This document shows positions 16,476 through 39,311 of a DNA stretch of 44,501 nt, piece by piece (the stretch's first letter is position 1; each line of letters begins with the position of its first letter). The translations under genes and the position numbers were made by a program. The notes under the pieces were generated by a model, which was not told the origin of the DNA, did no database searches, and saw only the letters and a program-made list of their open reading frames with translations. Source of the DNA: Sedimentitalea xiamensis (lineage in GTDB: Bacteria; Pseudomonadota; Alphaproteobacteria; Rhodobacterales; Rhodobacteraceae); the NCBI RefSeq assembly GCF_030164465.1, contig NZ_JASNJE010000035.1:1-44501 (forward strand), in the 5' to 3' direction.

Positions 16476-16502
16476 TGTCGGGTGAGTCTCGGGGGGACGA
16501 CA

Positions 16503-18077
16503 ATGAGCGAAACTATTTCGGCAACGCGCAAGTCGCGGCGGCGGGCGCGCGGTGGGGACGGCAATCCGCGCAGCGGCGCACCGGGACAGAACCCGCATCT
16601 GGAGGTGCCGTTCATAACGCGCGGCATCCCGACCTATGACCTGCTGAACGCCGACAGCCTGGAAAGGATCGAAAAGACCGCCGACCGGATCCTGGCCGAA
16701 ATCGGGATCGAGTTCCGGGACGACAGCGAAACCGTGCGGCTGTTCCGCGAGGCGGGCGGGCAGGTGACGGAGCTGGACAAGGATCGCTGGAACATCCGGT
16801 TCGAGCCGGGCATGATCCGCGAAATCCTTGCAACCGCCCCGGCGCGGTTCACCCAGCATGCCCGCAATCCGGCGAAGTCGGTGGAAATCGGCGGCGACGC
16901 GGTGGTGTTCGCGCCGTCCTATGGCTCGCCCTTCGTGATGGATCTCGACAAGGGGCGCCGCTACGGCACGATCGAGGATTTCCGGAACTTCGTGAAGCTG
17001 GCGCAATCGAGCCCCTGGCTGCACCATTCCGGCGGCACCATATGCGAACCGACCGATATCGCCGTCAACAAGCGGCATCTCGACATGGTCTATGCCCATA
17101 TCCGCTATTCGGACCGGGCGTTCCTGGGGTCGATCACGGCGCCGGAACGCGCCGAGGACAGCATCGAGATGTGCCGGATCCTGTTCGGCGCCGATTTCGT
17201 GGACCGGAACTGCGTCGTCATGGGCAATTTCAACACCACATCGCCGCTGGTGCTGGATGGCGTGACCACCCAGGGCATCCGGGCCTACGCGGCGGCGGGG
17301 CAGGGGTCGATCCATCTGCCTTTCCTGCTCGGTGGTGCGGTGTCGCCGCTGACGATGGCGGGATCGGTGGCCCAGTGCCTAGCCGAAAGCATGACATCCT
17401 GCGCGCTGACCCAGCTCGTGCGTCCCGGCGCTCCGGCAGTGCTTGCCGCGTTTCTCAGCACCATGTCGCTGCGTTCCGGTTCGCCCACGTTCGGGACCCC
17501 GGAACCCGCGCTGGGATCGCTGGTCATGGGGCAGCTCGCCCGGCGCCTGAACATGCCGCTGCGCTGCGCCGGGAATTTCTCGACCTCGAAACTGCCCGAT
17601 GCGCAGGCGATGCAGCAATCGATGATGTCGATGATGTCGGCGGTGCATTGCGGTGCAAACTACATCCTGCATTCGGCGGGGTTCCTCGACGGGCTCCTGT
17701 CGATGTCCTACGAGAAATTCATGCTGGATGCCGACCTGTGCGGCGCGTTGCACGCCTATATCAAGGGGGTGGATGTCACCGAAGACACGCTCGGCTTCGA
17801 TGCGCTGGCCGAAAAGGGCCCCGGCGAACACCTGTTCTCCTCCGCCCATACATTGCGCCACTATCAGACCGCTTACTGGGACAGCGCGCTGGACGACAAC
17901 CAACCCTGGGAAACCTGGGACGAACGGGGCGGCATCGACTCCGCCACCCGCGCCAATGCGCGCTGGAAAGCAAGTCTCGAAAGCTATGAAGCGCCCGCGC
18001 TCGATCCGGGGATCGACGATGCGCTGCGGGATTTCATGGAAACGAAGAAAGCGTCGATGGCCGACGCCTGGTATTGA
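16503..18077 (+). CDS. MttB-family (trimethylamine methyltransferase superfamily) protein, non-pyrrolysine
   Basis: A 524-residue protein of the COG5598 methyltransferase superfamily, whose members transfer a methyl group from quaternary or tertiary amines to a corrinoid protein. A basic N-terminal stretch precedes the conserved barrel region, with TYDLLNADSLERIEKTADRIL near the start and a C-terminal half containing TFGTPEPALGSLVMGQLARRL and the HCGANYILHSAGFLDGLLS stretch. No in-frame TAG occurs, so it is the non-pyrrolysine type, like glycine betaine or proline betaine methyltransferases. It starts at 16503 after GGGGGGA. It is the first gene of a four-gene operon with two amine-dehydrogenase-like flavoproteins and a racemase-like gene. 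No corrinoid protein gene is nearby, so the methyl acceptor is unknown. Family sure, substrate unknown. Confidence 0.85.
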   Translation: MSETISATRKSRRRARGGDGNPRSGAPGQNPHLEVPFITRGIPTYDLLNADSLERIEKTADRILAEIGIEFRDDSETVRLFREAGGQVTELDKDRWNIRFEPGMIREILATAPARFTQHARNPAKSVEIGGDAVVFAPSYGSPFVMDLDKGRRYGTIEDFRNFVKLAQSSPWLHHSGGTICEPTDIAVNKRHLDMVYAHIRYSDRAFLGSITAPERAEDSIEMCRILFGADFVDRNCVVMGNFNTTSPLVLDGVTTQGIRAYAAAGQGSIHLPFLLGGAVSPLTMAGSVAQCLAESMTSCALTQLVRPGAPAVLAAFLSTMSLRSGSPTFGTPEPALGSLVMGQLARRLNMPLRCAGNFSTSKLPDAQAMQQSMMSMMSAVHCGANYILHSAGFLDGLLSMSYEKFMLDADLCGALHAYIKGVDVTEDTLGFDALAEKGPGEHLFSSAHTLRHYQTAYWDSALDDNQPWETWDERGGIDSATRANARWKASLESYEAPALDPGIDDALRDFMETKKASMADAWY

Positions 18078-18087
18078 GGATTTTCGA

Positions 18088-20133
18088 ATGTCCAGGGACC
18101 CGCTGCTCCAGCCTTATCAGCTCAAGCATCTGACGCTCAGAAACCGGATCATGACCACGAGTCACGAGCCGGCCTATCCCGAGGACGGCATGCCCAAGGA
18201 CCGTTACCGTGCCTATCATGCCGAAAGGGCCAAGGCGGGCGTGGCGCTGACGATGACCGCCGGTTCGGCGGCGGTGTCAAAGGACAGCCCGCCGGTCTTC
18301 AACAACATCCTCGCCTTCAAGGACGAGGTGGTTCCCTGGATCCGACGGTTGACCGACGGCTGCCATGAACACGGCTGCGCGGTGATGATCCAGCTGACGC
18401 ATCTGGGCCGCCGGACCGGCTGGAACAAGGGCGACTGGTTGCCGTCCGTTTCGTCGTCCAAACACCGCGAACCCGCGCACCGGGCCTTTCCGAAGCGGAT
18501 CGAGGATTGGGACATCGAACGCATCATCACCGATTTCGCGGACGCCGCCGAACGGATGCAGGCGGGCGGAATGGATGGGATCGAGCTTCAGGCCTATGGC
18601 CACCTGATCGACCAGTTCTGGTCGCCGCTGACCAATGATCTGACCGGACCCTACGGTGCCGACACGCTCGAAAACCGCCTGCGGTTCCCTCTGGATGTCC
18701 TGACGGCGATCCGAAAACGTGTCGGCGACGACTTCATCGTCGGTTTCCGCTACACGGCGGACGAGGCGCAGAAGGGCGGGATCACGCCGGAGGAAGGCAT
18801 CGAAATCTCGAAACGGCTGGCTGCGACCGGTCAGGTCGATTTTCTCAACGTGATCCGGGGGCGAATCCACACCGATCCGGCGATGACCGACGTGATCCCG
18901 GTCCAGGGCATGAAGGCTGCGCCGCATCTGGATTTCGCGGGCGAAGTGCGAAAGGCCACCGGAATGCCAACCTTTCACGCCGCGCGCATCCCGGATGTGG
19001 CCACGGCCCGCCACGCGGTTGCCGAGGGCCTGCTGGACATGGTCGGCATGACCCGCGCCCACATGGCGGATCCGCATATCGTCCGGAAGATCGCCGAAGG
19101 GCGCGAGGATGACATTCGTCCCTGCGTCGGCGCGACCTATTGCCTTGACCGGATCTACCAGGCGGGCGATGCGCTCTGCCTGCACAACGCCGCCACCGGG
19201 CGCGAACTGACCATGCCGCACGACATCGCCCCGGCGAAGGTGCGAAAGACCGTGGTCATCGTGGGGGCCGGACCGGCCGGGCTCGAAGCCGCGCGCGTCG
19301 CCGCGGAGCGGGGCCATGACGTGACCGTCTTCGAAGCGGCCGCGGTGCCCGGTGGCCAAGTGCGCCTGACCGCCCAGTCGCCGCGCCGTCGCGAAATGAT
19401 CGGGATCATCGACTGGCGCATGGCGCAATGCGCGGCCCGCGACGTGGCGTTCCGGTTCAACACCTGGGCCGAAGCCGCCGACGTCACCGCGCTGAACCCC
19501 GACGTCGTGATCGTCGCCACCGGCGGGCTGCCCAATACGGAACTTTTCGAAACCGGCGTCGAACAGGGCAATGTCGTGACGAGCTGGGACATCATCTCGG
19601 GCGATGTTGCGCCTGCGGAAACCGTCCTGATCTATGACGAAAGCGGCGATCACCCCGGGCTTCAGGCCGCGGAAATCGCCGCCGCCGCGGGATCTAAAGT
19701 GGAGGTGATGACCCCCGACCGGGTATTCGCGCCGGATATCATGGCGATGAATCTGGTGCCCTACATGCGGTCGCTGCAGGACAAGGACGTGCATTTCACG
19801 GTCACGCGGCGGCTTCTGGACGTGAAGCGGGACGGCAACAAGCTGACCGCGACCATCGGCACCGACTACAGCGATCATTCCTACGCGGCGCAATATGACC
19901 AGGTGATCGTCAATTACGGCACCCTGCCGCTGGACGATCTCTATTTCGATCTGAAGCCGCTGTCGTCGAACGGCGGCGCGGTCGATCAGGACGCGCTGAT
20001 CGCAGGCCGTCCGCAAACCGTGGTCCGCAATCCTGAAGGCGCGTTCCAGCTGTTCCGCATCGGCGATGCGGTCAGCGCCCGAAACACCCATGCGGCGATC
20101 TACGATGCGCTGCGGTTGCTCAAGGATATCTGA
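18088..20133 (+). CDS. FMN/Fe-S/FAD amine N-demethylase, DgcA or N-methylproline demethylase-like
   Basis: A 681-residue protein of the old-yellow-enzyme/trimethylamine dehydrogenase family. An N-terminal FMN barrel (to about residue 340) is followed by a cluster loop and then a nucleotide-binding half starting with [22 protein letters not shown]. The early [20 protein letters not shown] and the [16 protein letters not shown] stretch are typical of the dimethylglycine/N-methylproline demethylase branch. The cluster loop has Cys346, Cys352 and Cys364, but the usual second cysteine is Ala349. It follows the methyltransferase gene by 10 bp with a GAGGA site. The probable reaction is oxidative removal of an N-methyl group from a tertiary or secondary amino acid, giving formaldehyde or methylene-THF. 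No electron-accepting partner is encoded nearby. The substrate is inferred. Confidence 0.85.
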
Positions 20134-20134
20134 G

Positions 20135-21163
20135 GTGCGGACGGGTCGCGTCATCCAGACGATCTCGGCCCATGCCGAGGGCGAGGTCGGTGACGTCATC
20201 ACCGGTGGCGTCGCGCCGCCGCCGGGCGACACGCTCTGGGAGCAAAGCCGCTGGATCGCACGGGACGACAGGCTGCGCCGCCTGATGCTGAACGAACCCC
20301 GCGGCGGCGTGTTCCGTCATGTGAACCTTCTGGTGCCGCCCAGGCATCCCGAGGCGCAGATGGGGTTCATCATCATGGAGCCGGAAGACACGCCGCCCAT
20401 GTCCGGGTCCAATTCCATCTGCGTCGCCACCGTGCTGCTGGACGCCGGTATCCTGCCGATGATGGAACCGGTGACGGAACTGGTGCTCGAAGCCCCCGGC
20501 GGGCTGGTCCGGGTGAGGGCCGATTGCCGCGATGGCAAGGCGGAACGGATACATGTCCGCAACCTGCCGTCCTTCGCCGACCGGCTCGATGCGGCGATCG
20601 AGGTCGAAGGCCTTGGCACCCTTACCGTCGATACCGCCTTTGGCGGCGACAGTTTCGTGATCGTCGATGCCGATGCGCTCGGTTTCGGGATCGCGCCCGA
20701 CGAAGCAGACGACCTTGCCCGTCTCGGGGTGCGGATCAGCGATGCCGCCACGGAACAACTGGGCTTCGCGCATCCCGAGCTTCCAGACTGGACGCATGTG
20801 TCATTCTGCCTTTTCGCGGGGCCGGTTGTACGCGACGGCGCGGCACTGACCGCGCGTTCGGCCGTCGCCATCCGTCCCGGCAAGATCGACCGATCTCCGA
20901 CCGGAACCGGGGTCTCGGCGCGCATGGCGGTGCTTGCGGCGCGGGGCGGCATGGCCGAAGGTGACACCCTGACCGCGATTTCGATCATCGGGTCCACCTT
21001 TTCCGGGCGGATCGCGGGAACCACGAGCCTTGGCGGGCGCCCTGCCATTCTTCCCGAAATCTCGGGACGGGCCTGGATCACCGGCACCCATCAGCACATG
21101 CTGGACCCCTCCGATCCCTGGCCGCTGGGCTACCGTTTGTCAGACACCTGGGGCCGGCGATGA
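20135..21163 (+). CDS. Proline racemase-superfamily protein with Ser/Thr at the catalytic cysteine positions
   Basis: A 342-residue protein of the proline racemase/4-hydroxyproline epimerase/trans-3-hydroxyproline dehydratase superfamily. The start is a GTG at 20135, just after the upstream stop and preceded by AAGGA. The first catalytic position, in [13 protein letters not shown], is Ser90 where racemases have Cys. The second, in [14 protein letters not shown], is Thr256 where racemases have Cys. Thr at the second position is known from trans-3-hydroxyproline dehydratases; Ser at the first is known in some epimerases. The combination argues against simple two-base racemisation and suggests a dehydratase or another activity. 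Its place between two N-demethylase-like genes suggests it acts on the demethylated or partly demethylated amino acid. Superfamily certain, reaction unknown. Confidence 0.85.
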
Positions 21164-23142
21164 CGGCGTTTCCGCATGTCTTCAAACCTGTCAGGCTCCG
21201 CCGCAAGACCCTGAAGAACCGCGTTGTCTTCGGGGCCCACACCACCAACATGGCCCGCGACGGGCTGCCCGGCGACCAGCATCTGGCCTACTACCGCGAA
21301 CGCGCCATGGGCGGTGCGGCGATGATCGTGGTCGAACCGATGCCGGTCCATCCCGCCGCCGTGCTGACCCATGGTAATTTCCGTGCCGGTTCCGACGCGG
21401 TCATTCCGCATTTCCGCCGGATCACCGAGGCCTGCCAGGCCCATGGCACGGTGATGATCCAGCAGCTTTATCACATCGGCGCGCATGGCGATTCCGACAA
21501 TTCCTGGCACGCCCACTGGTCGCCCTCCGGCGGACCCAGCTATCATGACAGCGACGGCAGCCACGAGATGAGCGAGGCCGAGATCGAGGAAACCATCGAC
21601 GGTTTCGTTCAGGCCGCGATCCGCTGCCGCAAGGCTGGTTTCGACGGAGTCGAGGTCTGGGCCGCCTATCACGGTCTGCTGGATCAGTTCTGGACCCCGT
21701 TTTCCAACCGGCGGAGCGACAAGTGGGGCGGCAGCCTGGAAAACCGCACCCGCGCCTCGCGCGAGGTGCTGCGCCGCATCCGCGCCGCCTGCGGCGAAGA
21801 TTTCATCATCGGGCTGGCGGTCAACGACGAACCCGATGTCGAAGCCGCGCTCAGCCGGGAAGAAACCGCGCGGATCGTCGCCCTGCACGACGCCGAGGGG
21901 TTGATGGACTACGTCACCTGCGGCTTTGGCGGCTACTTCGACTTCTACAAGCTGATGCCGACCGTGCTCTATGGCGAAAAACTGGGCGCCGACCTCGCGG
22001 CGATGCTGAAGACCGAGGTGCGCAATGCGCTCGTCACTGCCGAATGCCATATCCGCACGCCGGGCAACGCCAACACGGTCCTGGGTGCCGCGGAGGCCGA
22101 CCTGGTGTCGATCGTGCGCGGTCAGATCGCCGACCCGCATCTCGTCAACAAGGCGGCGGAACAGCGGGAAGACGACATTCGGGGCTGCCTGTCCTGCAAC
22201 CAGCAATGCTGGGGCCGGCGCGGCCGCGACTATTACATTTCCTGTCTGGTCAACCCGTCCGCCGGGCACGAATACCTTTGGGGCGGCGACCGGTTCGAAC
22301 CTGCCGGTGAGAGGCATTCGGTGCTGGTCGTCGGCGGCGGTCCGGCCGGCCTGGAGGCTGCGCGGGTGGCTGCCGAACGCGGACACAGGGTGACGCTGGT
22401 CGAGGCCGGGCCGAAACTGGGCGGACAGTTCCGGCTTGCCGGGCTGCAACCGCGCCGTGGCCAGATCACCGAACTGATCGCCTGGTACGAACGGCAACTC
22501 CTTGGGCTGGGGGTCGACATCCGCTTCAATTGCTACATGGACACCGGCGATATCGCCGCATTCGGGGCCGGCCGGGTGCTTCTCGCCACCGGGTCGCTGC
22601 CCGCCGAAACCGGGTTCCAGAAGGCGCTGCCGCACCTGGCTGCATTGCCCGGCATCGGGTCGGGCAATGTCTGGTCGGCCGAAGATGTGATGATGCAGGC
22701 CGCCCGGCTCGGGCCACGGGTGGTGGTGCTGGACGAGGGCGGCAACTGGCGTGGTTGCGGCACCGCCTGGAGGCTGGCGGAGGATGGCCACGAGGTCACG
22801 ATCGTCACTCCGGACGCGCTGGTGGGCAAGGAGTTGCAACGGTCCGCGACCGACTGGCCGCTGCGGCGGGCATTGGCCCGTCTGGGCGTGCGTTTCGTGA
22901 CGGAGTCGGCGATCCGGGAATGGAACGCGCAGGGCGCGATGGCCGAGAGCCTGCTGACCGGCAAGACAGAGCTATTGGCGGCGGATTCGCTGGTGCTGGC
23001 CACGCCGAATGTGGCCGATCCGCGCATTCGTCTGGAGCTGGCGGCATGCGGCGTCGCCATGCAGGCCATCGGCGACGCCAACGCACCCCGCAACGCGGCG
23101 CTGGCGATCTTCGAAGGACGAAAGGCGGGGCTTGCGGTCTGA
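21160..23142 (+). CDS. Trimethylamine dehydrogenase-like FMN/4Fe-4S/FAD oxidoreductase
   Basis: A 660-residue protein with the same architecture as the flavoprotein at 18088 but only moderately similar to it. It has an N-terminal FMN barrel, a complete cluster loop (Cys343, Cys346, Cys350, Cys362), and a nucleotide-binding half starting [22 protein letters not shown]. Relatives include trimethylamine and histamine dehydrogenases and dienoyl-CoA reductase. The TMADH cysteinyl-FMN site is not recognisable. The ATG overlaps the racemase-like stop by four bases, so it is the last gene of the operon. The likely role is a second oxidative dealkylation or dehydrogenation of the same compound family; the substrate is unknown. 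Confidence 0.83.
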
Positions 23143-23298: not shown

Positions 23299-25251
23299 AT
23301 GACCAGTTCACCCCGCGGCATTCTGCTGCTCGGAACGGCGCTGTGTGCCGGGATGGCTTCCGCGCAGGAGACCGCCGACCCATACTTTCTCGGCACGCTG
23401 CGCATCGGCACCCAGGCCGCACAGAACCTGCTTGGAAACGACAAGATCACCGAAGAGGAAATCGAGGAACGCAATCCCACCACCATGGCGGACGTTTTCA
23501 AGGGCGAGTCCTCCGTCACCACCAGCGGCGGCGCGGCCATTGCGCAGTAGATTTTCGTCAACGGTATCGAGGAAAGCCTGTTGTCGGTGACGATCGACGG
23601 GGCCAGGCAGAACAAATCGGCGTTTCATCATACGGGAAACATCCTTCTGGACCCGGCGCTGCTGAAATCCGCCGAGGTCAGCGAAGGCATCGCGCCCGCC
23701 GATGCGGGACCGAACGCGCTGGCCGGCGGGTTGGCCTATACCACTAAGGACGCCCGCGACTTTCTTGAGATCGACGAAACGATCGGCGGTCTTCTGACCC
23801 TGCGCGGGGGCAGCAATGGTGAGGGGTTCCGCCGGTCGCTGACCCTGTTCGGGCAGGCAGATGGCTTCGAATGGCTGCTGAGCGGCACGCGCCAGACCGG
23901 AGAGGATTATCAGGACGGCGACGGCGTCACCGTGCCCGGCACCGAAGCGGACCTGAGCGCCTACGTCCTGAAGCTCGCCCATACCTCCGCGAGCGGGAAA
24001 CGGTTGTCCTTTTCGGCCTCCGAAACAGAGGATACCGGAATCCGGGCTGCCCAGGCCGGACCCGGCGGCATCCTGTTCACCCGGCCCGATTTCGCGGCGG
24101 TCGTCGGGCGGCCCAGCCTGTTCGTCGAAGGGTTGTCCCGCCGGAGCTCCTATACGCTGACCTATGAGGACGAAGCCCCGCAGGGCTGGTTCGCGCCGAA
24201 ACTGCAACTCAGCTACAATGAACAGGAAATCGACGCTTCCGGCGTCTGGGGTCTGAACACCAGTCTGAGCGGCTTTGCCGCGAACGAATTCCTGCTCGGC
24301 AACGGCACGCTGAACGCGGGGATCGACTTTTTCCAGGAGACGGCGGAAGGCAAAGGGCGTGGTCCCGGACCCTTCGGCTCGTCCGGTGAGGAAACCCTGT
24401 GGAGCGTCGGCATGTTCGCCCAGGCGCGGCAGAACCTCAGCGACCGGGTCTCCGTGTCCTATGGCGGGCGGATCGATCATCAGGAATTCGAAGGCGCCGA
24501 TGGATCCCGCTTTTCGGACACCGGCGTCAGTCTGAACGGCGCAATCGACCTGGTGTTGACCGATACGCTGAGCCTCAATGCCGGGCTAGCCTCCAGCTGG
24601 GGCGGGTTCGAACTGGGCGAAGCGGCGCTGATCGATTTCGGCGGCGCCTGGGACTATACCGGCTTCAGGTCTTCGCGGGGGAACACGGCCCGCATCGGGC
24701 TGCGGCATGAAAACGGTCCCTGGGCCGCGAGCGGGGCGCTGTTCCATACGGCGATCGACGACATCGCCGCGGTCTTGCCGACAGGCGGAGCGCGCGGAGA
24801 ACTGGCCGATCTGACATCGCGCGGCTTTGACGGGTCGGTGTCCTGGACGGGAGAGCGGGCCTTTGCGCGACTGAACTATACCTATGCGGATGTGGAACTC
24901 GACGGCGATCCGATCAGCACCACCGCATATTACTATGGGCGGCCGGTCGGACATATCTTTGCGCTTGAGGGCGCCTATCAGGTGGCGCCCGAATGGCGGG
25001 TCGGCGGCAATGCCGAGATCGCGCTGAAAGACGATGACGCGGTTACGCCATTGCCGGGATACGTGGTCGCCAGCCTGTATGCGAGCTACAGACCGGTCCG
25101 TTTCGAAGGGATGGAGATTCGCCTCGACGTTCAGAACCTGTTTGACGAGACCTACGCCAAGCGCGGATCGGACGGGGTCGGCCTGGCAAACGTGGTCGCC
25201 CTGAATGAACCGGGGCGCACGATGTCGCTGACGGCGTCGCTGCGGTTCTGA
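23299..25251 (+). pseudogene. TonB-dependent outer-membrane receptor interrupted by an in-frame TAG
   Basis: The frame encodes a receptor of about 650 residues: signal peptide ending AGMASAQE, a plug domain, and a beta-barrel ending in MSLTASLRF with the terminal Phe typical of outer-membrane proteins. Translation would stop after 83 residues at TAG (23548-23550), in the plug. The same frame then continues unbroken with FVNGIEESLLSVTIDGARQ, and the rest of the barrel shows no other lesion. A single substitution, or a sequencing error, explains this. AAAGGA precedes the ATG, and an iron box lies upstream. Neighbouring siderophore-transport genes suggest a ferric siderophore or haem ligand. If the TAG is real the receptor is inactive; reinitiation would lack the signal peptide. 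Confidence 0.85.
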
Positions 25252-25341
25252 TCGGCAAGGGCGGGATCCGTTACCCTCCCCCCTTGCAAACCAGCGCGGC
25301 GTCCGGTTTCGCCGAAACGCCGTTTGACGCCGGTCAATCGG

Positions 25342-25367
25342 GGTCCCCGAAGACACTTTCGGGGACC
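25342..25367. terminator. Strong hairpin after the TonB receptor gene
   Basis: GGTCCCCGAA and TTCGGGGACC form a perfect 10-bp stem with a six-base GACACT loop, 90 bp after the receptor stop. No T-run follows. It lies between converging genes and may end transcription from the receptor side. Confidence 0.5.
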
Positions 25368-25477
25368 TGACAGGCAAAACGCGATCTTCAGGAAGGCCGG
25401 AGGACTCTTCGCGAGGTTCGGGTCCGTGCCGGGGTTTGATGCGATCCCCGGCGAAAACAGCAAGGATCGGGTTCGCC

Positions 25478-25491
25478 CGAAACGTGTTTCG
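25478..25491. terminator. Short hairpin after the DUF2218 gene
   Basis: CGAAAC-GT-GTTTCG is a 6-bp inverted repeat with a 2-base centre, about 30 bp beyond the minus-strand DUF2218 stop. It is flanked by GCC and GGGC that could lengthen the stem imperfectly. No T-run. Weak candidate. Confidence 0.3.
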
Positions 25492-25521
25492 CCGGGCGCC
25501 GATTTCCGAAACCGCCCTGCA

Positions 25522-25812
25522 TTACTTCGGCACCCAGTTCATTCCTGCGAATTCCTCCCGGAAGGCGAAACGTCTGAGATGATCGTCGATGATGTGCCGC
25601 GCGCGCGCCAGACCTGCGTCGTCTTCGGCGGTGATCTCGACAGACAGCGCATCGCCGGTCGCGGTCAGGCGCGCGGGGCCGGGCGGCAGGGCAACCGCGC
25701 CATTTTCCGGGTCGTACTCCACCGCAACCTTATGGGCAAAGTGCTTGCAGAGCTGTTGCAGATATTTCGATCCGTTCGGGGTTTCAAACCGACCCGTTTC
25801 GATCCTTGGCAT
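25522..25812 (-). CDS. DUF2218 family protein
   Basis: A 96-residue soluble protein of the DUF2218 family, with an N-terminal ETPNGSKYLQQLCKHFAHKV segment and an H-D-H stretch (RHIIDDHLRRFAFRE) near the C-terminus. A good AAGGATGA precedes the ATG. Members are often encoded with siderophore or haem uptake genes, and a role in intracellular siderophore handling has been suggested, but I know of no settled function. It is transcribed divergently from the siderophore-binding protein gene. An iron box lies in the shared gap, so both are probably iron-repressed. Confidence 0.8.
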   Translation of the reverse strand: MPRIETGRFETPNGSKYLQQLCKHFAHKVAVEYDPENGAVALPPGPARLTATGDALSVEITAEDDAGLARARHIIDDHLRRFAFREEFAGMNWVPK

Positions 25813-25827
25813 GGTTTCATCCTTTTC

Positions 25828-25842
25828 TGACTATTTCAGTCA
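25828..25842. promoter_or_regulatory. RirA-like iron box in the DUF2218/binding-protein gap
   Basis: TGACTATTTCAGTCA fits TGA-N9-TCA, with 5-bp arms TGACT/AGTCA. It shares the first nine bases TGACTATTT with the box at 23198. It lies 16 bp upstream of the DUF2218 start and about 100 bp upstream of the binding-protein start, so one site could control both directions. Confidence 0.6.
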
Positions 25843-25943
25843 GTTTATCGCTTGCGCTTTACCGGCGCAATCGGTTAGCAGGTCACAAACGCCAAGCCAC
25901 GCCCAACGGCCAGCCACGCATATGCCATCAAGGAGTTGTCATC

Positions 25944-26849
25944 ATGCGCATGGGTCTTCTCGGCGCCTTGCTTTCGGCGGTCATCGCGGGCCCCGCGCTC
26001 GCAGGCAAAGTCACCATCGACACGGCCACTGGTCCGGCGACGGTCACGGCCAATCCCACGAGGGTCGCGGTCTTTGATATTGCCGCCCTGGACACCCTGA
26101 CCGCCCTGGGCGTGACGGTCGCAGGCGTTCCGTCGCCAGTTTATGTCGACAGTCTACAGAATGTCGCGGAAGCGGCGCAGGTCGTCGGCACGCTTTTCGA
26201 GCCTGATTTCGAGGCGCTGGCCGTCCTGCAGCCGGACCTTATTGTCATCGGCGGGCGGTCCTCCGCACAGGCGAAAGCCTTGGCCGATATTGCGCCGGTG
26301 ATCGACATGACGATCTCCGGCGGGGATACGGTTGCGCAGGCACATGCCCGGATCGCCGCTTTCGGAGCGATCCACGGAAAGCGGGCAGAGGCCGAGGCCT
26401 TGAGCGCGGAACTGGACGCCAGGCTTGCCTCTGTCCGGTCGGCGGTCTCCGGAAAGGGCAACGCGCTTGTTCTGCTGACCAATGGCGGCAAGATCTCCGC
26501 CTTCGGCGCGGGCAGCCGGTTCGGCTGGCTGCACAGCGCACTCGGCCTTCCTGAAGCGGTTCCGGGGCTTGACTCCGAAACGCACGGGCAATCGGTTTCC
26601 TTTGAATTCGTTGCAGATGCCGATCCGGACTGGCTGCTGGTCGTCGATCGGGGCGCGGCCGTCGGAGCCGGAGGCGGGGCGGCCGCGGCGACGCTGGACA
26701 ACCGGCTGATTGCCCGGACCAAAGCGGCGCGGAACGGGCGGATCGTCTTTCTCGACGCCACCACGCTTTATATCGCAGGTGGCGGCGCAAATGCGATGAT
26801 GCGAACGCTTGGCGAAATCGCGTCCGCCTTCGGCGATCCGGACAGCTGA
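25944..26849 (+). CDS. Siderophore ABC transporter substrate-binding protein (CeuE/FatB type)
   Basis: A 301-residue periplasmic binding protein of the class III (FepB/BtuF-like) fold. The start at 25944 follows AAGGAG and gives a signal peptide ending GPALAGKV. The mature part has the typical PTRVAVFDIAALDTLTALG strand and the LQPDLIVIGGRSS segment of the catecholate-siderophore group. It is followed by two permeases and an ATPase, so it delivers ferric siderophore in the periplasm. The iron box upstream supports iron over cobalamin as the cargo. Confidence 0.88.
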   Translation: MRMGLLGALLSAVIAGPALAGKVTIDTATGPATVTANPTRVAVFDIAALDTLTALGVTVAGVPSPVYVDSLQNVAEAAQVVGTLFEPDFEALAVLQPDLIVIGGRSSAQAKALADIAPVIDMTISGGDTVAQAHARIAAFGAIHGKRAEAEALSAELDARLASVRSAVSGKGNALVLLTNGGKISAFGAGSRFGWLHSALGLPEAVPGLDSETHGQSVSFEFVADADPDWLLVVDRGAAVGAGGGAAAATLDNRLIARTKAARNGRIVFLDATTLYIAGGGANAMMRTLGEIASAFGDPDS

Positions 26850-26853
26850 AACC

Positions 26854-27786
26854 TTGGCCCGCGCTCTTGTTTGTTCCGCGCTGGCCGGCTTGGTCCTGGT
26901 CAGTCTTGCGCTGGGCGCGGCATCGCTTTCCGAAGGCGGCGGCTGGCTTCTCATGGCCAGCCGGTTCCCCCGCACCGCCGCCGCCGTGCTGGCCGGTGCC
27001 GGGCTGGCGCTGGCCGGCGTGGTCGTGCAGCAGGTGGTGCAGAACCGCATGGTCGAACCGTCGCTGACCGGAACGCCCGAAGCGGCGATGCTCGGGCTTC
27101 TGGCGGTGACATTGATCGCGCCGGGATCGCCCGTCGCGGTCAAGATGCTCTTTGCGGCGGCCTGCGCCATGGCGGGGATGGCCGGGTTCCTCGCGCTTGC
27201 GGACCGGGTTCCGCAACAGGATCCGATGCTGTTGCCGATCATCGGGCTGGTCTACGGAGGCATCCTGGGCGCGATCGCCACCTGGTTCGCTTGGTACAGC
27301 GACCTGTTGCAGTATCTGGGCATGTGGCGGCTCGGCGAATTCTCCGGCGTCATGCAGGGGCGTTATGAATGGCTCTGGGTCGTGGCGGTGCTGGCGGTCT
27401 TGCTTTATGTCGTGGCCGATCGGATCACGATCCTCGGGTTCGGCGAGGCGCAAGCGCGGTCTCTGGGGCTGAACTACGCGCAGACGCGAACGTTCGGGTT
27501 GGTGGTCGTGTCGCTGCTCACGGCGCTGGTGCTGGTGACGGTGGGCGCATTTCCCTTCGTCGGGCTTGTCGCACCCAACCTGATATCGCGATGGCGGGGC
27601 GACAATCTGCGCACCAATCTGGCTTGGATCGCGGTTTTCGGCGGCGCGCTGGTTCTGGCGGCCGACGTGGTCGGGCGTCTTGTCCGGTATCCTTTCGAAA
27701 TCCCGGCCGCCACCGTGTTCGCGGTTCTGGGCGCTGCGGTGTTTCTCTGGCTCCTTTACGCCGCGCCGGGCCGGTCCCATGGTTGA
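26854..27786 (+). CDS. Siderophore ABC transporter permease (FecCD family)
   Basis: A 310-residue membrane protein with about nine hydrophobic segments. It has the FecCD-family motifs SRFPRTAAAVLAGAGLALAG and VGAFPFVGLVAPNL. No ATG fits; a TTG at 26854, four bases after the binding-protein stop, gives the normal family N-terminus. A TTG at 26809 is possible but overlaps the upstream gene. Its end overlaps the start of the second permease by 8 bp. Confidence 0.86.
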   Translation: MARALVCSALAGLVLVSLALGAASLSEGGGWLLMASRFPRTAAAVLAGAGLALAGVVVQQVVQNRMVEPSLTGTPEAAMLGLLAVTLIAPGSPVAVKMLFAAACAMAGMAGFLALADRVPQQDPMLLPIIGLVYGGILGAIATWFAWYSDLLQYLGMWRLGEFSGVMQGRYEWLWVVAVLAVLLYVVADRITILGFGEAQARSLGLNYAQTRTFGLVVVSLLTALVLVTVGAFPFVGLVAPNLISRWRGDNLRTNLAWIAVFGGALVLAADVVGRLVRYPFEIPAATVFAVLGAAVFLWLLYAAPGRSHG

Positions 27787-28723
27787 GCGGCGGCTGATCG
27801 GACTCGGCTTTGGCCTGCTGGTCGTCGGTTCAGCGTTCCTGTTCTGGTCGCTGCGCGCGCCCTACGGATTCATTCTGGAATTGCGCGCGACGAAACTCGT
27901 GGCCCTTGTCTGCGTCGGCGCTGCGGTCGGGGCGGCGACCGTCCTGTTCCAGACGGTCGCGATGAACCGTCTTCTGACGCCTGGCATCGTCGGGTTCGAT
28001 GCGCTTTTCATCCTGTTTCAGACGCTCCTCGTCGCGGCGCTTGGAGGGGTCGGCGCGGCGCAGATTCCCGGCGCGCTGCGTTTCGTGCTGGAGACCCTGG
28101 TTCTCATGGGTGCGGCGGCAGTGCTTTTCGGCGTGGTCTTCCGGCGGGGCCGCGGCGACGTCACAAGGATGATCCTGACCGGGATCATCCTCGGCGTGCT
28201 GCTGCGCGGCCTGGCCGAAACGGTCCAGCGCATGCTCGATCCTTCGGAATTCGCGGTGGTACAACAGGCGATGTTCGCCTCTTTCGGACGCGTCGATCCG
28301 GGCCAGCTTGGCGTGGCGGTTCTGATCCTGTCCGGCGCGTTGGCCATTGCGTTCAGGCTGTCGCCGGCACTGGATGTGGCGGGGCTCGGTCGCGGGACGG
28401 CTCGGGGGCTTGGGCTGGATCACGACCGCATTGTATGGGCCACGCTGCTTCTGGTCGCGGCGATGGTGTCGGTCTCGACCGCTCTTGTCGGTCCCGTCAC
28501 GTTCCTGGGATTGCTCGCCGCGAGCCTTGCCCGCCTCGTGACCGACACCCATCGCCACGCGGTGCTGATACCGGCTGCGGCCCTGACCGGCTCCGTGATC
28601 CTGGTTGCCGGGCAGTTCGTGTTCGAGCGGCTGCTGTCCGGCCAGTCGGCTTTGGCCGTCGTGGTCGAATTTCTCGGCGGGCTGCTCTTCCTGTTCCTTG
28701 CTCTGAACAAGGGTCGCCCATGA
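27779..28723 (+). CDS. Siderophore ABC transporter permease (FecCD family), second subunit
   Basis: A 314-residue membrane protein, again FecCD-like, with LFQTVAMNRLLTPGIVGFDAL and the coupling region LGLDHDRIVWATLLLVAAMVS. The pair of unequal permeases is the arrangement seen in CeuBC/YclNO systems. The ATG lies inside the end of the preceding gene and the stop overlaps the ATPase start (ATGA). Confidence 0.88.
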   Translation: MVERRLIGLGFGLLVVGSAFLFWSLRAPYGFILELRATKLVALVCVGAAVGAATVLFQTVAMNRLLTPGIVGFDALFILFQTLLVAALGGVGAAQIPGALRFVLETLVLMGAAAVLFGVVFRRGRGDVTRMILTGIILGVLLRGLAETVQRMLDPSEFAVVQQAMFASFGRVDPGQLGVAVLILSGALAIAFRLSPALDVAGLGRGTARGLGLDHDRIVWATLLLVAAMVSVSTALVGPVTFLGLLAASLARLVTDTHRHAVLIPAAALTGSVILVAGQFVFERLLSGQSALAVVVEFLGGLLFLFLALNKGRP

Positions 28724-33900: not shown

Positions 33901-34434
33901 GGGCTTGGCGAAGAACTGACCGTGGCGGTGGCGCGCTATTATTACAAGTTGCTCGCGGTGAAGGACGAGTGGGAGGTCGCGCGCCTGTATTCCAAGCCCG
34001 GTTTCCGCAATTCGCTCGCCGAAACCTTCGAAGGCACGCCAGAGTTGACGTTCTATTTCGGGGCCTGGCCCTATGGCGGTCGCGACGAAAAGACCGGCAG
34101 AATGGTCAAGGGCGCGGTGAGCGGCAAGAAGGCCCTGCGGTTCTTCGGCCTGATGAACCGGTTGCGGGGTCTCCGCGGCACCATGCTCGATCCGTTCCGC
34201 AACAGCGAAGAGGCGATTCTGGCGCGGCGGCTGCTCGCCGATTACGAGGCGGATATCGATTTCGCCCTTGCCCATCTGTCGCGCGACAAGGCAACCGAGC
34301 TTGCGGACCTGCTGGCCCTGCCGGAACATATCCGTGGCTACGGCCATGTTCGCGAACGCCACGCCGCCGAGGTCGAAAAGCGCCGCAAGGCCCTGAGAAC
34401 CAAGATTGCGGCCAGCCCGGCCGTGGCCGCCTGA
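30970..34434 (+). CDS. Fused indolepyruvate:ferredoxin oxidoreductase-family protein
   Basis: A 1154-residue protein in which both subunits of the 2-oxoacid:ferredoxin oxidoreductase are fused. The N-terminal part holds the pyrimidine-binding domain. [13 protein letters not shown] and the ThDP motif [10 protein letters not shown] (Asp498) sit in the middle. An Fe-S region begins at Cys634 with CEGCGDC and continues through [12 protein letters not shown]. The C-terminal gamma-type domain starts with [20 protein letters not shown]. It would oxidatively decarboxylate a 2-oxo acid to the acyl-CoA, reducing ferredoxin. Members act on aryl- and branched-chain 2-oxo acids; the exact substrate is not visible. 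It starts at 30970, after CAGGAC, and ends 14 bp before the IlvD-type gene, whose products are 2-oxo acids. Confidence 0.88.
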
Positions 34435-34448
34435 CGGGGAGAGACCAC

Positions 34449-36320
34449 ATGAAACTCCGTTCCGACGTCGTGACGAAAGGCGTGCTCAATACCGGGGCTC
34501 GGGCGCTATGGCGGGCGACCGGCACCGGACCGGATGACTTCGGCAAACCCATCATCGCGATTGCCAATTCGTTCACGCAATTCGTGCCCGGCCATGTTCA
34601 TCTGCGCGACGTCGCCCCGATGGTCGCCGAGGAGATAACGGCCGCCGGTGGCGTTCCCAAGGAGTTCAATACCATCGCCGTCGATGACGGCATCGCCATG
34701 GGTCACGACGGCATGATGTATTCGCTGCCGTCGCGCGACAATATCGCCGACGCGGTGGAATACATGTGCAACGCGCATGCGGCGGACGCGCTGATCTGCC
34801 TGTCGAATTGCGACAAGATCACACCCGGCATGCTGATGGCGGCGCTGAGGTTGAATATTCCGACGATCTTCGTATCCGGCGGGCCCATGGAGTCCGGCAA
34901 GATCAATTTCCGCGGCGCCGATCTTCGCGTCGATGCGATCGATACGCTGCTGGTCATGGGCGACCCGACCGCCACCGAATCCGAAATCGAGGCCATGCAG
35001 GAGGCGGCATGCCCGACCTGCGGTTCCTGCGCCCTGATGGGAACCGCGAATTCGATGAACTGCCTGACGGAAGCCTTCGGCCTGGCCCTGCCCGGAAACG
35101 GCACGGTGCTCGCCACGCACAAGGACCGGGAACGCCTGTTCCGCGACGCCGCGCGCCGGATCGTAGGCATGGCGCACGACCACTATCGCGACGGGAACGA
35201 AGGGGTCCTGCCGCGCGCCATCTGTTCGCGGGAAGGTTTCGAGAACGCCGCGCGTGTCTCCATGGCGATTGGCGGATCGACCAATACGATCCTGCACCTT
35301 CTGGCCGCGGCGCAGGAAGCGGGGGTCGCCTGGACGGTCGAGGATTTCAACCGCATTTCGAATTCGACGCCCTGCCTCTGCAAGGTGTCGCCAAGCGCCC
35401 ATGAAGTCTTTGTGGAGGATATGCACCGTGCGGGCGGTGTGATGGCGGTGATGGGCGGTCTGAAACGGGCGGGCCTGCTCAACGCGGATAATCCCGCGGC
35501 CTATGCGCCGACGATCGGCGCGGCGATCGACGACTGGGATATCACGGCGACCGGGAGCGACGCGGCGCACCGGTTCTACCGCGCGGGACCGGGCGGCGTA
35601 AGGACCATGCGCCCGTTCAGTCAGGAGATGCGGTTTTCCGAACTCGACCTGGATCGAGAAAGCGGTGTCATCCGTGATGTCGACCATGCATTCAGCGACA
35701 CCGGCGGGCTTACGGTGCTATATGGAAACATCGCCCCGGACAGCTGTATTGTGAAATCCGCGGGCGTTCCCGCCAACCTCTTCGAGTTCAGGGGCCGCGC
35801 CCGTGTATTCGAAAGCAAGGATGATTGCATTGCCGCGATCACGTCGGATCGGATATTGCCCGGCGACTGCGTCGTGATCCGCTATGAAGGGCCGCGCGGC
35901 GGTCCCGGTATGCAGGAGATGCTGACTCCCACCGGTCTCATCAAGGCGCGCGGATTGGGCGACAAGGTCGCGTTGATCACCGACGGGCGTTTTTCGGGCG
36001 CGACTTCGGGCCTGTCTATCGGCCACATCTCGCCCGAGGCCGCATCGGGCGGGCTGATCGCCTTGATCGAGGAAGGCGACGAGGTCGCGATTTCGGTGCC
36101 GGACCGGACGATCGAACTGCTGGTCGATTCGGAAGAGATCGTCCGGCGCCGCCAGTCCATGCTGGACCGAGGGGCCGAGGCCTGGACGCCGCGCGGTCGT
36201 GTCCGCCCGGTTTCCACCGCATTGCGCATCTTTGGCCTGATGGCCAGTTCCGCCGACAGGGGCGGTTCGCGTGACAAGGCCTTGCTGGAGAAACTGGAAC
36301 AGGCGGCAAAAACGTCCTGA
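34449..36320 (+). CDS. Dihydroxy-acid dehydratase, IlvD type
   Basis: A 623-residue protein very close to E. coli IlvD along its length: [20 protein letters not shown] near the N-terminus, the cluster cysteines in [10 protein letters not shown] and [11 protein letters not shown], the [19 protein letters not shown] stretch, and [17 protein letters not shown] near the C-terminus. The enzyme removes water from a 2,3-dihydroxy acid to give a 2-oxo acid, using an Fe-S cluster. In branched-chain amino acid synthesis it makes oxoisovalerate. No other ilv genes are nearby. It is 14 bp behind a 2-oxoacid:ferredoxin oxidoreductase gene, so a catabolic paralogue with a different dihydroxy acid is likely. 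A GGGGAGAG site precedes the ATG. Confidence 0.9.
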
Positions 36321-36379
36321 CCAGCGCCCGCGTTTCCCGCCCAAAGCGAAGCCCCCGTCGCGGAAGAACCAGAGACAGG

Positions 36380-36408
36380 TTGCAAATTGCCGCGCAACGC
36401 CGTCTTAT
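36380..36408 (+). promoter_or_regulatory. Possible promoter of the choX-type gene
   Basis: TTGCAA (36380-36385) and TCTTAT (36403-36408) are spaced by 17 bases, each a 4/6 match to sigma-70 hexamers. It sits in the 126-bp gap before the choX-type start. A weak call made without experimental support. Confidence 0.25.
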
Positions 36409-36446
36409 CCGGCGTCAGAAACGAACGAAAACAGGGGGAATTCCAG

Positions 36447-37376
36447 ATGATTAACTTGTTTGGCAAAGCGGCGGTCGTGATCGGTCTTGGCGCCGGAATG
36501 GCCATGGCGAATTGCGACGAAGTCACTTTCTCGGATGTCGGCTGGACCGACATCACCGCCACCACGGCCGTCACCACCGTGATACTGGATGCGTTGGGCT
36601 ATGACACGGATATCAAGATCCTGTCGGTTCCCGTCACCTACACGTCGATGGCCGCGGGCGATATCGACGTGTTCCTCGGCAACTGGATGCCGACGATGGA
36701 AGCCGACATCGCCCCCTACCGCGACGCGAAAACCGTGGACACGGTGCGCACCAATCTGGAAGGCGCGAAATATACCCTGGCGGTCAACCGGGCCGCCGCC
36801 GACCTCGGGATCGGCAATTTCGCGGACATCGCCGCGCATGCGGACGCGCTGGATGGCAAGATCTACGGGATCGAGCCGGGCAATGACGGAAACCGCCTGA
36901 TCCAGTCGATGATCGACGGCAACGCCTTTGGACTCGAAGGGTTCGAGGTGGTGGAAAGCTCCGAACAGGGGATGCTGGCGCAGGTGGCCCGCGCCGACAA
37001 GCGCGGAGAACCGATCGTGTTCCTCGGCTGGGAACCGCATCCGATGAACGCGAATTTCACCTTGACCTACCTGGAAGGCGGGGACGACTTCTTTGGCCCG
37101 GACCTCGGCGGCGCGACGGTCATGACCAACACCCGTGCCGGATATGTCGAAGAGTGCCCGAATGTGGGCAAGCTGCTGACGAACCTCGAATTCACGCTGG
37201 CGATGGAAAACCAGATCATGGGCGCGATTCTGGATGGCGGCAAGAAGCCGGATGAAGCCGCCGCCGAATGGATCAAGGCCAATCCGGAAGCGCTCAAGGC
37301 CTGGCTGGACGGCGTGAAGGATGCCGAGGGCAATGACGACGCATTCGCGCGGGCCAGCAAGGCCTTGCTGGACTGA
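36447..37376 (+). CDS. choX: Choline-type ABC transporter substrate-binding protein
   Basis: A 309-residue periplasmic protein of the OpuAC family with a signal peptide ending MAMANCDE. It aligns without gaps at the ligand site to ChoX of Sinorhizobium meliloti. The four aromatic-cage residues correspond to Trp33, Trp80, Tyr109 and Trp195, and the two polar contacts to Asp35 and Asn146, all shifted by exactly ten from ChoX numbering. This supports choline or acetylcholine-like ligands. The start follows GGGGGAA. A strong terminator-like hairpin directly after it probably makes it more abundant than the permease. No betaine-synthesis genes are in the window, so the imported compound may feed the demethylation genes instead. 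Confidence 0.93.
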   Translation: MINLFGKAAVVIGLGAGMAMANCDEVTFSDVGWTDITATTAVTTVILDALGYDTDIKILSVPVTYTSMAAGDIDVFLGNWMPTMEADIAPYRDAKTVDTVRTNLEGAKYTLAVNRAAADLGIGNFADIAAHADALDGKIYGIEPGNDGNRLIQSMIDGNAFGLEGFEVVESSEQGMLAQVARADKRGEPIVFLGWEPHPMNANFTLTYLEGGDDFFGPDLGGATVMTNTRAGYVEECPNVGKLLTNLEFTLAMENQIMGAILDGGKKPDEAAAEWIKANPEALKAWLDGVKDAEGNDDAFARASKALLD

Positions 37377-37382
37377 TCGCGG

Positions 37383-37417
37383 CCGGGTGTGGCGCCCAGC
37401 GTCGCGCCCGGATTTTT
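37383..37417 (+). terminator. Intrinsic terminator or attenuator between choX and choW
   Basis: A 13-bp stem (37383-37395 with 37399-37411, including three G-U pairs) has a CCA loop and is followed by TTTTT at 37413-37417. It begins six bases after the choX-type stop and lies before the permease gene. Partial termination here would set a high ratio of binding protein to membrane components. Confidence 0.7.
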
Positions 37418-37464
37418 CCGCCAGCCGGCCCGATCACGCAGGCGCGGCCCACCGATAGAGCGAC

Positions 37465-38298
37465 ATGAACTGGCTGACCGACCACAAACTGCCGATCGAC
37501 GATTTGGCCGAGACCGGTTTCGACTGGTTGCAGACCAACGGTGCATGGTTCTTCGATGGGCTGGCGCTGGGAATGGAATCGCTGATCGATGCCATTCTCT
37601 GGGTGCTGCAAACGCCGCATCCCCTGATCGTGGTGGCGGCCTTCGCGGCCTTGACCTGGCTGATCCAGCGCAGCTGGAAGATCGTCGCGCTGGTGGTCCT
37701 GGGATTCCTGTTCATCCTCAACCAGGGCTATTGGGAAGAAACCACGGAGAGCCTGACGCTCGTCCTGTCGGCCTGCGTCGTCTGCATGGGTGCGGGCGTG
37801 CCCATCGGTATCGCCGTCGCGCATCGGCCGCGGCTCTACCGGGCGGTCGCGCCGGTTCTGGATCTCATGCAGACGCTGCCGACCTTTGTCTACCTGATCC
37901 CGGCCATCGTGTTCTTCGGGATCGGCATGGTGCCCGGACTGATCGCGACGGTGATCTTCGTTCTGCCGGCCCCGATCCGGCTGACCCAGCTCGGGATATC
38001 GTCCACCCCCAAGGACCTTCTGGAAGCCGCCGAAGCCTTTGGGGCGAAGCCGTCGCAAACGCTCTGGAAGATCGAACTGCCCTATGCGCTGCCGCAGATC
38101 ATGGCCGGGCTGAACCAGACCATCATGCTGTCCCTGTCGATGGTCGTGATCGCGGCGCTCGTGGGGGCCGACGGGCTGGGTGTGCCGGTGGTGCGCGCCC
38201 TCAACCAGGTGAACACCGGGCTGGGTTTCGAGAGCGGGCTGATCATCGTGGTCGTTGCGATCATGCTCGACCGGATGCTGCGGGTGCACCGGAAATGA
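37465..38298 (+). CDS. choW: Choline-type ABC transporter permease
   Basis: A 277-residue inner-membrane protein of the ProW/OpuAB family. A long N-terminal stretch precedes the membrane segments. The permease signature is recognisable in EAAEAFGAKPSQTLWKIELPYALPQIMAGLNQ, the EAA loop that contacts the ATPase. The Shine-Dalgarno is weak. Its stop overlaps the ATG of the ATPase gene. Assignment to choW rests on its position between choX and choV homologues and its family. Confidence 0.9.
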   Translation: MNWLTDHKLPIDDLAETGFDWLQTNGAWFFDGLALGMESLIDAILWVLQTPHPLIVVAAFAALTWLIQRSWKIVALVVLGFLFILNQGYWEETTESLTLVLSACVVCMGAGVPIGIAVAHRPRLYRAVAPVLDLMQTLPTFVYLIPAIVFFGIGMVPGLIATVIFVLPAPIRLTQLGISSTPKDLLEAAEAFGAKPSQTLWKIELPYALPQIMAGLNQTIMLSLSMVVIAALVGADGLGVPVVRALNQVNTGLGFESGLIIVVVAIMLDRMLRVHRK

Positions 38299-39311
38299 GG
38301 AACGCGGTCGAATTCGACAGGGTCAATATCGTATTCGGCGATCACCCCGACCGGGCGCTTCCCCTGATGGATGCCGGTCAAAGCCGCGCCGAAGTGCAGG
38401 AAGCGACCGGCCAGATCCTCGGGGTGCACGACTGTTCGCTGGACGTGGCCGAAGGCGAGATCCTTGTCCTTATGGGCCTGTCCGGGTCCGGCAAATCGAC
38501 CCTTCTGCGCGCGGTCAACGGGTTGAACCCGCTGGTGCGCGGGCAGGTGCGGGTCAGCGACGGGACACGGATGATCGATGTCACGGGCGCCGATGCCGCG
38601 ACCCTGCGGCATGTCCGCCAGACCCGCGTGTCGATGGTGTTCCAGCAGTTCGGCCTGCTGCCCTGGCGCAGTGTGCGGGCCAACGTGGCGCTGGGGCTGG
38701 AACTGTCCGGTCTGCCGCGCGCTGAACAGGCGCGCCGTGCCGACGAACAACTGGCGAAGGTCGGACTGAAGGATTGGGGCCATTGCAGGGTGGGCGACCT
38801 GTCCGGCGGCATGCAGCAACGCGTTGGACTGGCGCGGGCCTTTGCGACCGATGCGCCGATTCTCCTGATGGATGAACCCTTCTCGGCCCTGGACCCGCTG
38901 ATCCGCACCCGGCTCCAGAATGAATTGCTCGATCTGCAACGGGACATCCGGCGCACCATCATCTTTGTCAGCCACGATCTCGACGAAGCCTTCAAGCTGG
39001 GCGGGCGGATCGCCATCATGGAAGGTGGGCGGATCGTGCAATGCGGGACGCCACGGGACATTTTTTCGAACCCGGTATCCGACTATGTGGCGGATTTCGT
39101 CGCGAACATGAACCCGCTGGGCGTTCTGACCGCGCGCGACGTGATGGGACCCGCCGTCGCCGGCGCGACGGCCGAGGTCGAGGCCGAAACGCCGGTCCGC
39201 ACCCTCATGGGCCAGTTGCGGGGCGATGGGGCGCTGCTGGACGTGACGGGCGAAGGCGGGCGGATCGGAACCGTTTCGGCCCGCAGTCTTGTAGAGCGGC
39301 TCGCGCAGTGA
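38295..39311 (+). CDS. choV: Choline-type ABC transporter ATP-binding protein
   Basis: A 338-residue ATPase of the ProV/OpuAA family with Walker A GLSGSGKST, signature LSGGMQQRVGLARAF and Walker B ILLMDEPFSALDP, followed by the FVSHDLDEAFKLG switch region. The C-terminal ~70 residues extend beyond the ATPase core and are shorter than a full tandem CBS domain. It overlaps choW by four bases and is the last gene of the transporter. A long dyad structure lies immediately after its stop. Confidence 0.92.
   Translation: MRNAVEFDRVNIVFGDHPDRALPLMDAGQSRAEVQEATGQILGVHDCSLDVAEGEILVLMGLSGSGKSTLLRAVNGLNPLVRGQVRVSDGTRMIDVTGADAATLRHVRQTRVSMVFQQFGLLPWRSVRANVALGLELSGLPRAEQARRADEQLAKVGLKDWGHCRVGDLSGGMQQRVGLARAFATDAPILLMDEPFSALDPLIRTRLQNELLDLQRDIRRTIIFVSHDLDEAFKLGGRIAIMEGGRIVQCGTPRDIFSNPVSDYVADFVANMNPLGVLTARDVMGPAVAGATAEVEAETPVRTLMGQLRGDGALLDVTGEGGRIGTVSARSLVERLAQ

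Follow-up and report, generated by a model that had tools for sequence, protein, structure and literature searches.

Two described pathways for the breakdown of proline-type betaines bear on the locus considered here. The catabolism of proline betaine in Paracoccus and Rhodobacter was reportedly described by Kumar in 2014, and Zhao in 2013 is said to have described a hydroxyproline betaine pathway with HpbD, an epimerase of the enolase superfamily. In the Paracoccus/Rhodobacter pathway, as far as the available account extends, two successive N-demethylations lead to proline, the first by a Rieske oxygenase and the second by an HpbA-like demethylase. We compare these systems with a locus of Sedimentitalea xiamensis contained in a stretch of 44,501 nucleotides (hereafter the window; contig 28 of the 4.75-Mb genome). 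Inside its 23-kb stretch of genes on one strand there is probably a compact operon of four genes, the genes past 23,142 being apparently separate modules or neighbours. On balance, we favour a TetR-controlled operon for the catabolism of a proline-type betaine, in which the first demethylation is B12-dependent and T3HypD links a 3-hydroxylated relative to the same route. The second, HpbA-like demethylation and the TetR, proXWV and P5CR-like neighbours seen in relatives are shared with the available account of the Paracoccus/Rhodobacter pathway; the difference is that the Rieske oxygenase would be replaced by a methyltransferase, MttB, and that T3HypD and a second flavoprotein, OYE2, are added.

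Corrinoid-linked demethylases of betaines have been described in other bacteria. The available text on Eubacterium limosum describes MtpB, a proline betaine:corrinoid methyltransferase of the MttB superfamily that is non-pyrrolysine and uses a shared corrinoid protein encoded apart (PMC8604678). We liken our protein to MtpB by this description and not by sequence. E. limosum is an anaerobic acetogen, whereas the gene described here shares its operon with genes for an HpbA-like protein and T3HypD. In Ruegeria pomeroyi, mutant evidence in the available part of the report shows that glycine betaine demethylation is served by unlinked MtgC and MtgD (PMC12478193). The same text gives up to seven PF06253 proteins of unassigned substrate per marine bacterium, and the authors suggest that further PF06253 proteins act on other compounds. 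The MtgBCD system, so described, resembles ours in pairing a PF06253 protein with an unlinked MtgC-type protein, DUF1638 and an MtgE-type protein. It differs in its neighbour genes, and SPO2108 and SPO2134 of that paper are candidate orthologues only.

The features of the module are as follows (positions in the window, strand, content):

15794 to 16420, minus strand: TetR-family regulator (PF00440, 39.4 bits), divergent from mttB
16440 to 16476, no strand: two operator-like palindromes in tandem between TetR and mttB, TTGACATGTATGTCAA and TTGACAGATATGTCAT
16503 to 18077, plus strand: mttB, non-pyrrolysine MttB-superfamily methyltransferase (PF06253, 714 bits)
18088 to 20133, plus strand: OYE1, predicted HpbA-like N-methylproline demethylase flavoprotein (PF00724 and PF07992; 70.8% identity to an annotated Paracoccus HpbA)
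20135 to 21163, plus strand: T3HypD, a racemase-like protein of the hydroxyproline dehydratase type (NF047722, 625.8 bits, cut-off 550; Ser/Thr pair)
21160 to 23142, plus strand: OYE2, second flavoprotein of the trimethylamine dehydrogenase (TMADH)/FadH type (Oxidored_FMN and Pyr_redox; homologue in 21 of 80 mttB loci)

The TetR start was picked by eye, its open frame extending to 16627, and the T3HypD start at 20135 is probably a GTG. Gaps of 10, 1 and -4 bases separate mttB, OYE1, T3HypD and OYE2 and suggest a single transcript from mttB through OYE2.

The gene-order comparison proposed in an earlier sequence-only reading of this DNA was run on 80 loci around close mttB homologues (73-88% identity; flanks of at most 10 kb, many on short contigs; identity cut-offs set for this analysis). 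It ties mttB to the regulator and the flavoproteins: OYE1 is above cut-off in 54 loci, TetR in 45 and OYE2 in 21. A P5CR-like gene is found in 20, two LysR types in 19 and 18, a 2-oxoglutarate (2OG)-oxygenase-like gene in five, T3HypD in two and IlvD in one. The 62 loci whose right flank is 5.5 kb or longer hold OYE1 in 43 cases, OYE2 in 17, the P5CR-like gene in 13 and T3HypD in two; some loci hold both a P5CR-family gene and T3HypD. In Paracoccus, Pseudosulfitobacter, Rhizobium and Shinella the module is flanked by genes of the OCD or Ldh family, to which pyrroline-2-carboxylate reductases belong. The S. xiamensis genome has an OCD protein (contig 11) that is 47% identical to those of Paracoccus and Pseudosulfitobacter, and its best NCBIfam model is pyrroline-2-carboxylate reductase, below cut-off (229.5 vs 322). 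An open-literature search found no paper on a TetR-mttB-OYE1-T3HypD-OYE2 operon, although one may exist.

The motif T(T/C)GACA-N4-TGTC(A/G)A, whose window copies are at 16440 and 16461, is present in 14 of 26 TetR-target gaps, the window included, where mononucleotide shuffles predict 0.0075; a relaxed form is present in 19 (0.0275 expected). The 26 gaps are those that passed a distance and orientation filter among the 45 loci with TetR, and, being related in sequence, they are not 26 independent events. Relaxed sites number 21 in 4.4 kb of gap sequence; the 80 loci, 1.42 Mb in all, have 52. No further copy with up to one mismatch was found in the window; allowing two mismatches adds a single match, inside choX, with 0.72 expected by chance.

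Other contexts were also seen among these relatives. Five mttB loci (L052, L054, L063, L067 and L079) have a LysR gene, mttB and a 2OG/Fe oxygenase resembling isopenicillin-N synthase in a row, the family being assigned by eye. On the Sinorhizobium fredii plasmid NZ_CP029232.1 (H35 and H68, 24185-27856), mttB (64.6%) and OYE2 (66.8%) are convergent and adjacent. The hpbA-like gene of Shinella and Rhizobium is separated from genes for electron-transfer flavoproteins by one that is annotated as a dimethylsulfoniopropionate (DMSP) lyase (L162:1564-2169, L163:1492-2094); the Shinella gene scores 195 bits with PF16867.

The window MttB contains a full-length MTTB domain (cut-off 25, profile positions 11-499 of 500). 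It was described as non-pyrrolysine from the sequence alone, and this is borne out: the frame has no internal stop or in-frame amber codon, and the pyrrolysine-type equivalog TIGR02369 gives 228.8, under its cut-off of 525. No corrinoid protein adjoining mttB was found in the window. On contig 7 of the same genome an MtgC-like protein (B12-binding and B12-binding_2) is clustered with DUF1638 and a homocysteine methyltransferase. It falls under the NCBI MtgC cut-offs (186 vs 370) and may be the partner of MttB. Gene context suggests that MttB acts on proline betaine as MtpB does. The substrate could instead be glycine betaine, carnitine or another quaternary amine, with OYE1 and OYE2 as general demethylases of N-methyl amino acids and an accidental link to proline. 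Many amines are substrates of MttB relatives in the available text of PMC8604678. There are five PDB matches. For the best of them, 4YYC, no substrate is given; the second and third are of the MtgB type, and one of these two is named glycine betaine methyltransferase. The genome also has three further PF06253 proteins (contigs 66, 4 and 44; about 49, 35 and 27% identity to the window MttB), whose neighbours include, by eye, no obvious betaine gene. We nevertheless regard this explanation as quite improbable, because the identity of OYE1 to HpbA, the T3HypD gene and the pyrroline-reductase-type neighbours indicate a pyrrolidine ring.

Both flavoproteins combine Oxidored_FMN and Pyr_redox domains, and their earlier description as N-demethylase-type enzymes is supported. 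OYE1 is 70.8% identical over 681 residues to a Paracoccus protein annotated as hpbA, N-methyl-L-proline N-demethylase, and 72.7% identical to a homologue from Shinella whose annotation says no more than flavin oxidoreductase. We predict that it is an HpbA-like N-methylproline demethylase. OYE2 is only 30-33% identical to the same two proteins. In PDB alignments OYE1 is without one cysteine of the TMADH iron-sulfur motif region (CVGATYC vs CIGCNVC), and OYE2 retains CLSCNQQC. The dienoyl-CoA reductase tyrosine (SEGYLINEF), which we take to be functional in that enzyme, as we do the iron-sulfur cysteines in TMADH, aligns with His in OYE1 and with Gly in OYE2. Ene-reductase activity was set aside for both proteins, and dehydrogenase or demethylase roles are preferred on account of this replacement. 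Homarine or another pyridinium betaine was considered as the substrate because two OYE-type proteins are present, and was dropped upon the HpbA match of OYE1; no title among ten papers listed names homarine genes.

With 625.8 bits, against a cut-off of 550, the equivalog NF047722 identifies the racemase-like protein as a T3HypD. The sequence-only reading placed it correctly in the proline racemase superfamily and described its active site as changed. In the available text of PMC4113996 the t3HypD structure B9K4G4 has Ser 90 and Thr 256, and the window protein has Ser and Thr at the corresponding motifs SGSNSIC and DRSPTGTG. The changed site is thus the usual one of the T3HypD family, the pair being that of a known crystallised enzyme, and the protein is not uncharacterised in kind but belongs to a characterised family (NF047722, PMC4113996). 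A new catalytic pair was rejected as well: the Cys-to-Val difference from PDB relatives (DRSPTGTGV) falls next to the catalytic Thr rather than on it, and this Cys is absent in 41 of 42 relatives. Cys replaces Thr itself in three of the 42 (L143, L150 and L154), L150 being within an hpbA operon.

The families, gene order and linkage are observations, the reactions and the substrate inferences; the pathway can be outlined conditionally. MttB would transfer one N-methyl group of proline betaine, and probably also of 3-hydroxyproline betaine, to the Co(I) of a corrinoid protein. The acceptor would be a shared MtgC-type protein encoded elsewhere in the genome, from which the methyl group would pass to tetrahydrofolate, and this route would stand in for the Rieske demethylase used by the known pathway, an enzyme that depends on oxygen. 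OYE1, judged by its 71% identity to the annotated HpbA, would remove the second methyl group oxidatively. T3HypD is firm as to family, and its presumed use here would be to dehydrate the 3-hydroxylated product. This would give Delta1-pyrroline-2-carboxylate, for conversion to L-proline by a reductase whose gene is elsewhere (the candidate on contig 11). The least certain step is that of OYE2, which probably oxidises another N-methyl or ring position feeding the same imine. The substrate is probably proline betaine and also its 3-hydroxy analogue; a quaternary or hydroxylated amino-acid betaine had been suggested before, and the present analysis supports it. Such an operon would assign one PF06253 clade of marine bacteria a concrete, testable substrate class. 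It points to a B12-linked enzyme as a possible substitute for an oxygenase when proline betaine is broken down, and it would tie this breakdown to 3-hydroxyproline chemistry.

A more specific proposal is a pathway, not described before, for 3-hydroxyproline betaine (3-hydroxystachydrine) or N-methyl-3-hydroxyproline. It would consist of cobalamin demethylation, flavin demethylation and ring dehydration by T3HypD; OYE2 might act on a ring intermediate that is dehydrated or of D configuration. We advance it tentatively, as its chances fall short of even. The compound 3-hydroxystachydrine is named in the available literature on Capparaceae plants.

The distribution of T3HypD bears on a different view, in which one regulon serves two diets: MttB and HpbA would act on proline betaine only, T3HypD and perhaps OYE2 on free trans-3-hydroxyproline that arrives with it, and no hydroxylated betaine would be involved. 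The window protein shares sequence family and Ser/Thr pair with the characterised T3HypD, whose family is characterised on free trans-3-hydroxyproline and, in the available accounts, tied to hydroxyproline pathways; the window gene is in an mttB-hpbA operon. T3HypD matches were found in 168 genomes. Among the best 96 (at least 64% identity), hpbA lies within 10 kb in 13 cases, the other 83 being away from any listed hpbA, and many of the 40 places fetched adjoin other hydroxyproline-type genes (families by eye). T3HypD is also missing from most mttB-hpbA loci. The T3HypD tree has 44 proteins. Twelve of them come from hpbA contexts and form no single group, and one specialised clade was rejected since the contexts are mixed. 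The hpbA-operon label requires six changes, at least five of these forced by well-supported branches, and 20 of 500 label shuffles are as low; 17 rows fall in no group. It thus appears that T3HypD has moved between gene contexts on several occasions. Its tight packing within the operon, and its occupation of the same slot between OYE1 and OYE2 in several lineages, speak against the two-diet explanation, which we consider rather unlikely but still worth keeping in view. Rows shorter than 250 residues, L059 and L077 included, were dropped before the tree was built; in these two loci the T3HypD matches (near 5929 in L059 and near 5.9-6.2 kb in L077) are short or split and are possibly remnants.

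The replacement of an oxygenase by MttB was examined across the family, in 394 genomes from 393 genera, with cut-offs of E <= 1e-210 for mttB and E <= 1e-230 for hpbA. mttB is present in 72 genomes, hpbA in 200 and both in 70 (Fisher p about 2e-21, with kinship of the genomes ignored). The 150 hpbA places among the matches listed compare with 200 genomes matched, so the adjacency counts are lower bounds. At these places mttB is within 10 kb in at least 35 cases and a Rieske gene within 15 kb in at least 17, and no place has both; 31 have mttB only, four mttB and T3HypD, nine T3HypD only, 17 the Rieske gene only and 89 none. The 200 hpbA genomes divide into 16 with mttB and the Rieske gene, 54 with mttB only, 57 with the Rieske gene only and 73 with neither (odds ratio 0.38, p 0.003). 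This avoidance fits the replacement of one first-step demethylase by another, though not cleanly. The S. xiamensis genome has no match at E 1e-110 to the Rieske protein of a Rhodobacter hpb locus, a query itself picked by context.

Several observations weigh against the proline-type betaine operon as we propose it, in addition to the 83 T3HypD places without a listed hpbA. T3HypD is in only two of the 80 mttB loci, often with the P5CR-like gene in its place. Neither mttB nor the Rieske gene was found in 73 of the 200 hpbA genomes. The two genes occur independently of each other when all 394 genomes are counted (16 with both, p 0.87), and a Rhodobacter plasmid outside the sample carries hpbA, TetR, proXWV, Rieske, LysR and mttB in about 12 kb, an exception to their mutual avoidance near one hpbA. 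No listed hpbA lies within 10 kb of 39 of the 74 mttB places. This linkage drops with the distance of the homologue: hpbA is within 10 kb of 32 of the 44 best places (70-100% identity) and of three of the 30 others (63-71%), leaving 12 and 27 unlinked. G106, the sole genome of the same genus sampled, has no mttB, hpbA or T3HypD at the cut-offs used. The putative HpbA label of OYE1 comes from one annotation and from earlier literature. The own-genome search for corrinoid partners took in the MtgC-type protein. A Paracoccus plasmid (L159, 11072-23793) has, in a row, T3HypD, OCD, P5CR-like and hpbA genes, iron-chelate uptake genes and a gene of the indolepyruvate ferredoxin oxidoreductase family (IOR), so that hpbA is beside iron uptake and IOR-family genes there as in the window, with 40-43% identity to those of the window.

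The remainder of the 23-kb stretch begins with an uptake system:

about 23.3 to 29.5 kb, plus strand: TonB receptor, binding protein, two FecCD proteins and ATPase, a Fec/haem-type ATP-binding cassette (ABC) uptake system (family scans)

It is followed, in order, by a DHDPS-like gene, the IOR, ilvD and a choline-type ABC transporter. All families named in the sequence-only reading were recovered by hmmscan (MTTB, two Oxidored_FMN + Pyr_redox, Pro_racemase, DHDPS, POR/DUF6537, ILVD_EDD, OpuAC + ABC_tran), the uptake system having been left out. That reading also placed its genes on one strand within 23 kb, which is true, but demonstrable linkage ends at 23,142. The transporter passes the choline ABC models TIGR03414 and TIGR03415. 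IlvD scores above the cut-offs of two equivalogs for dihydroxy-acid dehydratase, PRK12448 (950.5 vs 710) and TIGR00110 (716.3 vs 618), and looks like an ordinary enzyme of branched-chain biosynthesis.

These genes could form one pathway over 16.5-39.3 kb, from import through 2-oxo-acid oxidation. The single strand and the Paracoccus order just given are in keeping with this, as are weak relatives that single genomes carry 22-26 kb away from mttB (IOR at 28% in G409, DHDPS at 30% in G418 and 27% in G399). A single pathway of this extent is nonetheless highly improbable, and the wider scheme first suggested is not sustained. No IOR, DHDPS, choX, TonB or Fec homologue was above cut-off in the 80 mttB loci, and no IOR match was among the matches listed for them. 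Whole-genome linkage was followed for IOR, DHDPS and choX in 25 genomes with mttB loci. Orthologues of IOR (71-72%) are present in two, of DHDPS-like (59-66%) in two and of choX (67-80%) in 17. None is near mttB; they are on other contigs, except for choX at 97 and 243 kb in two genomes, and the assemblies are fragmented, so that a different contig is no proof of distance. The lack of a further operator copy in the window and the biosynthetic type of IlvD point the same way. The iron/haem uptake, DHDPS-like, IOR, IlvD and choline ABC genes have no close orthologous linkage to the operon where examined. A ProU/choline-type ABC ATPase, 31-40% identical to that of the window, is found in four of the 80 mttB loci (L014, L040, L061 and L072). 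Genes for betaine import are therefore sometimes found near mttB, but they are not those of this transporter.

A few features of the window stand apart. The frame of the TonB-dependent haem-type receptor (23299-25251) is broken by an in-frame TAG at 23548-23550. Scans of the window for tRNA and Rfam families gave no match at the gathering cut-off. A second catabolic-looking block at 2056-15461 comprises an AraC regulator, a Liv-type ABC transporter, an aldehyde dehydrogenase, a DctPQM TRAP transporter and thiamine diphosphate (ThDP) enzymes on the plus and the minus strand; its aldehyde dehydrogenase, dctP, dctM, livK and both ThDP genes have no match above cut-off in the 80 mttB loci. The plus-strand frame at 13659-15641, which has no family match, was rejected as a gene; the minus-strand open reading frame at 13836-15461 there is the ThDP enzyme.

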